Assembly (NCBI RefSeq): GCF_022808695.1
Contig: NZ_JAKZKW010000002.1
Coordinates: forward strand, 186,001 to 250,000
DNA from: Fundidesulfovibrio soli
GTDB lineage: Bacteria; Desulfobacterota; Desulfovibrionia; Desulfovibrionales; Desulfovibrionaceae
Direction: 5' to 3'
DNA: 64,000 bases
Within the stretch, counting starts at the first letter, position 1. Each line of letters opens with the position of its first letter. A program made the translations under genes and the position numbers. This document shows positions 29,843-31,162 of this stretch, in pieces. Under the pieces are notes generated by a model that worked only from the letters and a program-made list of their open reading frames with translations, made no database searches and was not told the origin of the DNA.

Positions 29843-29860
29843 GCGGCAAAATATTGCCGC
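29843..29860. promoter_or_regulatory. GCGGCAA-N4-TTGCCGC dyad, site 1
   Basis: A perfect 7-4-7 dyad lies between the ends of the receiver and activator genes. It may also act as a weak hairpin terminator, though no T run follows. It is the best match to the motif shared with four sites at 30931-31095. Confidence 0.5.
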
Positions 29861-29923
29861 CCCCGCTGAGCTTCTCAACCGTACACTCAACCATCGCAGC
29901 CCAGCCCCTGTGGGGGGCTTGGG

Positions 29924-30955
29924 TCAACGGGCCGTGCGGTCCAGATCCAAACCGTATTCGCTGAGCTTGTAGCGGAGCGTCCTGGGGGATATTCCCAGGA
30001 TTTCCGCCGTCTTGGCTTTGCTGCCCTGGGCGTGCCGGAAGGCGCGCAGGATGGCCTTGATCTCGGCCTCGCGCACCGCCGCCTCCAGGAGCATGCTCTC
30101 CGGCGCGGGGGACTCGGCGCTGTGAGCCAGGGGACTGTTGAGCACCTCGGGCGGCAGGTCGTCGGGTTCTATGGCGCCGCCGGGGTGCACCAGCACAAGC
30201 CGCTCGATCATGTTGCGCAACTCGCGCGCGTTGCCTGGCCAGGCGTACTTGCCGAGGATCGCGAGCGATTCCTCCGCCAGGCTGGGCACCGGTCGGTGGT
30301 AGCGGTGGGCGTAGTGTTCAAGGAAGTGGGCCGCAAGATGCGGGATGTCGTCGGTCCGCTGGCGCAGGGGCGGCAGGGAGACGGGCACCACGTTGAGGCG
30401 GTAGTAGAGGTCGGCCCGGAAGTCCCCGGAGCGGACCATCTCCAGCAGGTTGCGGTTGGTGGCGGCCACGATGCGGGCGTCGAACGGCAGGTCGCGCTCT
30501 CCGCCAAGGCGGCGGAAGGTGCGTTGCTCCAGCACGCGCAGAAAGTCGGCCTGGTTGTTGGGCGGTATCTCGCCCACCTCGTCCAGGAAGAGCGTGCCGT
30601 CCCCGGCCAGTTCGAAGCTGCCTTTCTGCTGTCGCGAGGCCCCGGTGAAGGCCCCGGCCTCGTGCCCGAAGAATTTGTCCGCGAAGAGCTCGCCCTTGAG
30701 CACGCCGCAGTTCACCGGAATGAAAGGCTTTTCCTTCCTGTTGGAGAGGGTGTGGATGAGCCTGGCGAAAAGCTCCTTGCCGGTGCCGGATTCCCCCTGC
30801 AGCAGGATGGGCGCGTCCGAAGGCGCCACCTTGGAGGCCAGTTGGTGGGCGTCGCGCATGGAGCGCGAGCCGATGAGCACGGCCGTGACGCCGCCGCCCT
30901 CCTCGGGCAGGTCGTCCAGATGCAGACGTAGCGGCAGATTTTTGCCGCTGGTCAT
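29924..30955 (-). CDS. Receiver-less sigma54-dependent transcriptional activator
   Basis: The 343-residue activator has an AAA+ domain with Walker A GESGTGKE, the sigma54-contact loop FGHEAGAFTGA, Walker B GTLFLDEVGE, sensor AATNRN and an arginine finger region FRADLYYRLNVV. A C-terminal Fis-type helix-turn-helix follows (AKTAEILGISPRTLRYKL). There is almost no N-terminal regulatory domain (about 25 residues), so activity is probably controlled by a partner or by its amount. Dyads of the motif GCGGCAA-N4-TTGCCGC lie within its first codons and upstream of it. It diverges from the TauE/SafE gene and likely activates that gene. Confidence 0.95.
   Translation of the reverse strand: MTSGKNLPLRLHLDDLPEEGGGVTAVLIGSRSMRDAHQLASKVAPSDAPILLQGESGTGKELFARLIHTLSNRKEKPFIPVNCGVLKGELFADKFFGHEAGAFTGASRQQKGSFELAGDGTLFLDEVGEIPPNNQADFLRVLEQRTFRRLGGERDLPFDARIVAATNRNLLEMVRSGDFRADLYYRLNVVPVSLPPLRQRTDDIPHLAAHFLEHYAHRYHRPVPSLAEESLAILGKYAWPGNARELRNMIERLVLVHPGGAIEPDDLPPEVLNSPLAHSAESPAPESMLLEAAVREAEIKAILRAFRHAQGSKAKTAEILGISPRTLRYKLSEYGLDLDRTAR
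30931..30948. promoter_or_regulatory. GCGGCAG-N4-TTGCCGC dyad, site 2
   Basis: One half-site base differs from the consensus. It lies inside the first ten codons of the activator gene, where binding would block its transcription. Confidence 0.45.
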
Positions 30956-30994
30956 AGCGGCTTCATCGCTCTCATGGCGGTTGCCTCCCTGGTT

Positions 30995-31012
30995 GCGGCA
31001 AATTCATGCCGC
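30995..31012. promoter_or_regulatory. GCGGCAA-N4-ATGCCGC dyad, site 3
   Basis: One base differs from the consensus. It lies 40 bases upstream of the activator start, between it and the divergent exporter gene. Confidence 0.5.
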
Positions 31013-31057
31013 TCACGCCTGCTTTATAACCCTTGCCGCTTGAAATGAAAAGCCTGA

Positions 31058-31095
31058 TCGGCAACCTGTTGCCGCTAGCGGCAAATTCTTGCCGA
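31058..31095. promoter_or_regulatory. Paired dyads, sites 4 and 5 (candidate sigma54 enhancer)
   Basis: TCGGCAA-CCTG-TTGCCGC (31058-31075) and GCGGCAA-ATTC-TTGCCGA (31078-31095) are spaced 20 bases start to start. Two turns of helix would place two activator dimers on the same face. The pair lies about 70 bases before the candidate sigma54 promoter at 31147, a usual enhancer distance. Confidence 0.6.
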
Positions 31096-31146
31096 TTGTC
31101 CGAGGGCTGAAAATCGCAATCCATTGAATTAATGGAGTATGTCTCC

Positions 31147-31162
31147 TGGTACGCTTCTTGAT
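31147..31162 (+). promoter_or_regulatory. Candidate sigma54 promoter for TauE/SafE gene
   Basis: TGGTACG-N4-TTGAT matches the -24/-12 consensus (TGGCACG-N4-TTGCW) in spacing, in the -24 GG and in the -12 G. The base after that G is A where C is usual, and T replaces C at -22. It lies about 88 bases before the exporter ATG. Confidence 0.55.

Follow-up and report, generated by a model that had tools for sequence, protein, structure and literature searches.

A receiver-less sigma54 activator of Fundidesulfovibrio soli, its probable dyad operators and a degenerate second activator in the divergent TauE/SafE operon

How is a sigma54 activator without a sensor of its own controlled, and which sites does it read? 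Both questions are raised by a locus in Fundidesulfovibrio soli (contig NZ_JAKZKW010000002.1), where the gene of such an activator, here called EBP1, stands divergently to an operon beginning with a TauE/SafE gene, and where copies of the dyad GCGGCAA-N4-TTGCCGC are clustered (Table 1; the window is the whole stretch of 64,000 nucleotides that was analysed). The original prediction, made from the letters themselves, held that the activator lacks a receiver and binds five such dyads. Pfam and motif searches agreed with the first point: EBP1 contains a sigma54 AAA+ domain with intact Walker A, GAFTGA and Walker B motifs and a Fis-type HTH, receiver, PAS and GAF domains were absent, and the AAA+ match starts at residue 30. 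EBP1 therefore has the make-up of a sigma54 enhancer-binding protein (EBP) without an N-terminal domain, the type of DVU2956. All five dyads were also recovered at the predicted positions within 1.3 kb, the distal one (29843-29860) being perfect and the other four carrying one mismatch each. A plasmid search with the region matched 453 records, none of which covered more than 80% of the query; among the matches listed, 19-24% of the query was covered, mostly at the AAA+ domain.

Table 1. Genes and sites at the EBP1 locus, in window coordinates.
Feature	Position	Strand	Basis
Stand-alone receiver gene convergent to EBP1, neighbour of distal dyad	29420..29815	+	Pfam
Distal dyad, 64 bases past activator stop codon, between two convergent genes	29843..29860	.	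perfect
EBP1, receiver-less sigma54 activator, probable ortholog of DVU2956	29924..30955	-	Pfam, motifs, conserved neighbourhood
Dyad within codons 3-9 of activator gene (coding-site dyad)	30931..30948	.	1 mismatch; DNA-level constraint
Intergenic dyad, activator side	30995..31012	.	1 mismatch
Dyad, first of tandem pair upstream of TauE promoter	31058..31075	.	1 mismatch; kept in same-genus sequences
Dyad, second of tandem pair, promoter-proximal	31078..31095	.	1 mismatch; kept in same-genus sequences
Candidate sigma54 promoter TGGTACGCTTCTTGAT (GG-N10-GA)	31147..31162	+	sequence; GG-N10-G kept in same-genus set
TauE/SafE (TSUP) transporter, first gene of operon, probable counterpart of DVU2958	31250..32224	+	PF01925, E 5e-36; adjoins EBP1 in relatives
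Small conserved protein without Pfam match	32254..32688	+	Pfam scan, neighbourhood in relatives
EBP2, PAS plus degenerate sigma54-type AAA+, probable ortholog of DVU2960	32702..33862	+	Pfam, motifs, alignment
Small protein, match to PF02579 (Nitro_FeMo-Co) slightly below cut-off	33864..34223	+	Pfam, neighbourhood
dCache histidine kinase, start codon provisional	34213..35943	+	Pfam, neighbourhood
Stand-alone receiver	35940..36320	+	domain scan
Stand-alone receiver	37024..37479	+	domain scan
Receiver plus histidine kinase hybrid, co-transcription only putative	37494..38594	+	domain scan

With at most one mismatch, the dyad occurs at eight places in the genome of 3,996,106 bases, five of them at the activator locus, and the reversed-pattern control gave four. 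The three remaining places (L002, L003 and L008; site at 1501-1518) all lie within long open frames elsewhere, the frames being judged by eye. Because five of the eight tight matches fall here and the other three inside open frames, the motif singles out one locus in its own genome at this threshold, and the scan did not return the many random intragenic matches that the original prediction had named as counting against it. The idea that the regulon extends further in this genome was rejected for sites of this strength, since the three further places lie inside long open frames. When three mismatches were allowed, the window total of 14 was not unusual (shuffle mean 9.65; 12 of 100 shuffles reach 14), and this loose threshold is uninformative. 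In the sister genome G001, a perfect dyad identical to the distal site stands at an unrelated place (C23:118580; L054, about position 2080); it was rejected as a second target, the corresponding stretch of the window's genome carrying no dyad.

The species-genome scan gave 44 loci with relatives, of which 38 (L009-L044, L050 and L051) were compared; by title these are Desulfovibrionales, or deltaproteobacteria or proteobacteria without further name, and the six distant loci (L045-L049 and L052) were scanned for the motif only. As far as the stretches extend, all 38 keep the order EBP1, divergent from TauE, small protein, EBP2, NifX-like protein and kinase. In 37 loci (36 of the 38 plus the window, with L043 and L044 left out), the stretch running from upstream of EBP1 into its first codons held 57 sites with at most one mismatch, distributed over 30 loci, compared with a mean of 0.01 and a maximum of 2 for 200 permuted dyads; the loci are related, hence not independent, and near-duplicates may occur among the G and L loci. 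At two mismatches there were 82 upstream sites against a control maximum of 9, and three inside the gene against a control maximum of 12. With further genomes added (47 loci; L043 left out and L056 dropped as the same locus as L009), an upstream dyad of at most two mismatches was absent from four (L011, L026, L062 and L063), and a pair of dyads 18-24 bp apart was found in 19. Among 39 whole genomes, counting the window's own, 11 carry EBP1 itself at E 1e-100 or better. The exact core CGGCAAN4TTGCCG occurs at 25 places in these 11 genomes, 20 of them within 300 bp of the EBP1 gene; the other 28 genomes, which have no EBP1 match at that threshold, hold it at 26 places. G020 has EBP1, and the exact core is absent from its locus. 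Further dyads were seen about 1.2 kb behind the activator gene of L040 (6285-6302, perfect) and about 1.25 kb behind that of G003, the latter within an open frame. Taken together, these comparisons make it very probable that the neighbouring EBP1 recognises the dyads and that they mark the promoter of the TauE operon.

A unit of this kind is already described in D. vulgaris. According to PMC4641369, DVU2956 is an EBP without an N-terminal domain, divergent from DVU2957-DVU2964 (or -2967); in gel shifts it binds upstream of DVU2957, and the second EBP of the operon, DVU2960 (GAFPGA), does not. The same paper calls the function of DVU2960 unclear and reports an annotated HTH for D. vulgaris EBPs except DVU0151, and so for DVU2960 too; within the open-licence literature searched, DVU2956 is named in eight papers and DVU2960 only there. 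Like the published unit as it is set out in PMC4641369, the window has a receiver-less EBP, a divergent, probably sigma54-dependent transport operon with an internal second EBP whose GAFTGA is altered, a candidate binding site upstream of that operon and conservation in Desulfovibrionales. It differs from that description in carrying five dyads, of which two form a tandem pair and one lies past the activator gene, in a second EBP with neither an HTH match nor a GAFTGA loop, and in the GA of its -12 element. In the Nitratidesulfovibrio-like relatives, EBP2 (L040, L043 and L051) shares GAFPGA with DVU2960, and the loci show one dyad followed, by eye, by a partial further half-site, compatible with the "three conserved half-sites" of PMC4641369, the motif being compared by description. 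By gene order and signature motifs, the window unit is a probable ortholog of the DVU2956 unit. The TauE/SafE gene had been labelled an exporter in the original prediction; that label is no more than the name of the Pfam family, and its probable counterpart, the TSUP gene DVU2958, is placed in a clade whose members are discussed as candidates for sulfate transport (PMC5840216 and PMC7531388).

The dyads might instead belong to another regulator, such as EBP2 or a receiver, with EBP1 acting elsewhere. The operon does encode several regulators, and binding of EBP1 to the dyads is a prediction here; however, the EBP2 of the window has no HTH match, the four receiver proteins scanned with Pfam lacked a DNA-binding domain, the clustered sites accompany EBP1 across genomes, and in the gel shift reported in PMC4641369 it was DVU2956, not DVU2960, that bound upstream of DVU2957. 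We regard this alternative as highly improbable. Because the locus matches the published DVU2956/DVU2957 unit, for which that paper gives the gel shift, and because the parts occur together in relatives, the reading of EBP1, dyads and TauE operon as activator, sites and target is supported and also largely known. We put the probability that this core is a one-component sigma54 unit of the DVU2956 type at roughly 0.85.

The candidate sigma54 promoter has GG-N10-GA in place of the canonical GG-N10-GC at -24/-12. GG-N10-G is kept in all six aligned same-genus sequences, with GG at -13/-12 in L055 and L058, and this alignment shows the leader conserved along with it, as are both the tandem and the coding-site dyads. 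The intergenic dyad on the activator side is marked, in the same-genus set, only in the window, L056 (the same locus as L009; two mismatches) and L057. A loose promoter pattern was matched in 34 of the 37 loci of the wider set, a count made without a chance control that includes extra matches in three loci and a match at an unexpected place in L017. Since relatives show GC, GA, GT or GG at this position, the promoter element is conserved and the C at -12 is not; we take the predicted promoter, with GA replacing the canonical GC, as a genuine but non-canonical sigma54 element. The distance of about 70 bases between site and promoter given in the original prediction applies to the first member of the tandem pair; the promoter-proximal one ends 51 bases before the motif. 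In the proposed mechanism, EBP1 would bind the GCGGCAA-N4-TTGCCGC dyads as upstream enhancers and drive the TauE operon from this promoter, and the tandem pair, whose members lie two helical turns apart, would be the main enhancer. The 5' leader of the operon (31170-31250) is well conserved inside groups of relatives; unusual folding of the leader was not detected (z 0.7 versus shuffles), and the segment 29400-34300 gave no Rfam match up to E 1.

The dyad in the first codons of EBP1 translates as Gly-Lys-x-Leu-Pro, so conservation at the protein level had to be excluded by a codon test. For each locus the last G[KNRT]xLP match before Walker A with a start codon in reach was used, which left 34 of 37 loci (L026, L028 and L036 omitted). 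The Leu codon at this site is the rare TTG in 32 of the 34 loci and CTG in the other two, the window and L009, whereas elsewhere in the same genes TTG accounts for 104 of 1354 Leu codons; Gly is GGC in 34/34 (0.64 elsewhere) and Pro is CCG in 33/34 (0.41 elsewhere). These codon choices indicate that the coding-site dyad is constrained as DNA, the 34 loci being related and not independent events. The original prediction saw in this dyad a site of self-repression, and like the intergenic dyad at 30995-31012 it may serve, in place of an enhancer, as an operator by which EBP1 represses its own gene. Besides the constraint and the overlap with the gene start, a minus-strand TATAAA is seen by eye directly upstream of 30995-31012, and L009 has TATAAT in the corresponding position; against this, the scan of 29800-31300 for promoters returned nothing of the sigma70 type ahead of EBP1. 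Moreover, four Nitratidesulfovibrio-like loci (L040, L043, L050 and L051) have no dyad of at most two mismatches near the promoter other than the coding-site one, which makes an enhancer role at least as likely as self-repression. We consider purely self-repressing operators a serious option with somewhat less than an even chance. The two roles are compatible, and in the proposed mechanism the coding-site dyad would be a second enhancer that possibly also limits EBP1 expression.

A dyad behind the activator gene, for which the original prediction gave no explanation, is likewise found in relatives. Between -30 and +150 of the EBP1 stop codon, 13 of 37 loci have a dyad with at most two mismatches (control mean 0.06, maximum 1) and nine have one with at most one mismatch (controls 0); when further genomes were included, it was present in 18 of 47 loci and absent from 29. 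The neighbouring gene, its direction guessed from codon composition, is convergent in 13, co-directional in 3 and uncalled in 2 of the loci with the dyad, and convergent in 11, co-directional in 15 and uncalled in 3 of those without. Among the 38 loci, a counterpart of the window's convergent receiver gene stands beside EBP1 only in L009 (L053, L055, L057 and L058 being outside the comparison). As the other site-bearing loci have different neighbours, the downstream site goes with EBP1, and the receiver gene is probably outside the regulon. The only sigma70-like site in the scan of 29800-31300 lies on the minus strand at 29878-29850 (TTGAGA-17-AATATT); it would read towards the convergent receiver gene and overlaps the distal dyad, which makes control of an antisense transcript another possibility.

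Dyads behind a stop codon could also be RNA hairpins, that is, terminators that merely resemble the operator. The window's distal dyad folds as a 7-pair hairpin, that of L059 (about 4765-4800) is extended to at least 16 pairs with z -5.65 versus shuffles, and that of L015 is followed by a T run. This explanation is nevertheless unlikely, as the 13 of 37 loci match the operator consensus itself, far above the control mean, and in the window neither a terminator-like site in 29800-31300 nor unusual folding was found (z -1.2; 27 of 200 shuffles equally good). The hairpin reading is weak for the window's distal dyad, with L059 the exception. The site behind the stop codon would be, in the proposed mechanism, a further EBP1 site, perhaps serving as a loop anchor or a road-block.

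The second activator of the operon, EBP2, retains a PAS domain, Walker A and sensor II; the GAFTGA loop, Walker B DE and DNA-binding HTH of a working sigma54 activator are missing. GAFTGA is absent from 45 of 45 orthologs (48 rows less L033, L050 and L053, whose stretches end before EBP2 and whose rows are EBP1 itself), GAFPGA standing in its place in the three Nitratidesulfovibrio-like loci named above, and GAFTGA mutants are described in PMC7175178 as mostly unable to activate. In an alignment of 34 orthologs (L012, whose EBP2 lies in two frames, and L033, L043, L044 and L050 omitted; whole open frames used, so that several rows start upstream of the true start), all 34 have a sigma54-type AAA+ domain, and the Walker B aspartate is missing from every one. 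HTH_8 was matched by two of the 34, presumably L040 and L051 given their long tails. Twelve weaker EBP2 matches elsewhere in the 39 genomes are longer PAS-EBPs and lie in open frames of 470-580 residues.

Loss of these motifs, and the split of the L012 gene over two frames, could mean that EBP2 is a decaying pseudogene or a passenger without a role in control. Such decay seems doubtful, because EBP2 is in the operon at all 36 loci reached by their stretch (38 less L033 and L050) and adjoins EBP1 in 11/11 EBP1 genomes, and because the lysine of Walker A is invariant, like several residues of sensor II, in 34 sequences that are 41-54% identical to the window's, save for the near-identical L009. 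The PAS domain contains a C-x-H-x6-C-x3-C stretch whose cysteines (C57, C66 and C70) are complete in 31/34 and whose histidine is present in 28/34; the window, L009 and L027 lack part of the motif, and a role in metal or redox sensing is possible. The genes at 34213-38594, a kinase, receivers and a hybrid kinase, are densely packed after the first genes of the TauE operon.

Lacking both the motif that contacts sigma54 and the Walker B aspartate, EBP2 is a candidate non-catalytic partner, and with its PAS domain a candidate sensor partner of EBP1. EBP1 having no sensor of its own, its likeliest control would be EBP2, a product of the same operon, which would join mixed rings with EBP1 and give ligand-gated, probably negative, feedback; by entering these rings EBP2 would supply the receiver-less activator with a sensor in trans. 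That EBP2 gates EBP1 is a tentative proposal, to which we give a little less than even odds. The complete picture is the more speculative: here the non-catalytic PAS sensor made by its own operon would enter EBP1 rings and lower or gate their activity, and the sites inside and behind the gene would let EBP1 loop the DNA over its own gene. PspA, a negative regulator of this general sort, is encoded in the operon driven by PspF. The proposal resembles PspF and PspA in that an EBP would be under negative control of a partner protein, a comparison drawn for EBPs without N-terminal domains in PMC4641369, but here the part of PspA would fall to a PAS-bearing, degenerate EBP. Paired EBPs in mixed oligomers are described for FleQ/FleT, HrpR/HrpS and VnfA paralogs, and FleT is encoded in a FleQ-driven operon (PMC7277832 and PMC9542535); in contrast to these pairs, EBP2 has neither the sigma54 contact motif nor the Walker B aspartate, and its partnership with EBP1 is putative.

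The core switch is thus already known from D. vulgaris, and the coding-site dyad, the dyad behind the activator gene and the crippled second activator are new; these are the parts worth following. The sigma54 switch established by gel shift and compared within ten Desulfovibrionales genomes in PMC4641369 is here extended across 38 loci, and its operator code is clear. Its operators inside and behind the activator gene occupy places only partly covered by the motif search of that paper, which is given as upstream regions from -650 to +50, and the crippled sister activator in its own operon is the proposed answer to the control of a sensor-less activator. The review PMC8586430 reports, citing Zhu 2019 (whose title as listed there also names hydrogen sulfide production), that DVU2956 lowers the formation of biofilm in D. 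vulgaris; the signal of EBP1 would therefore be of practical interest.
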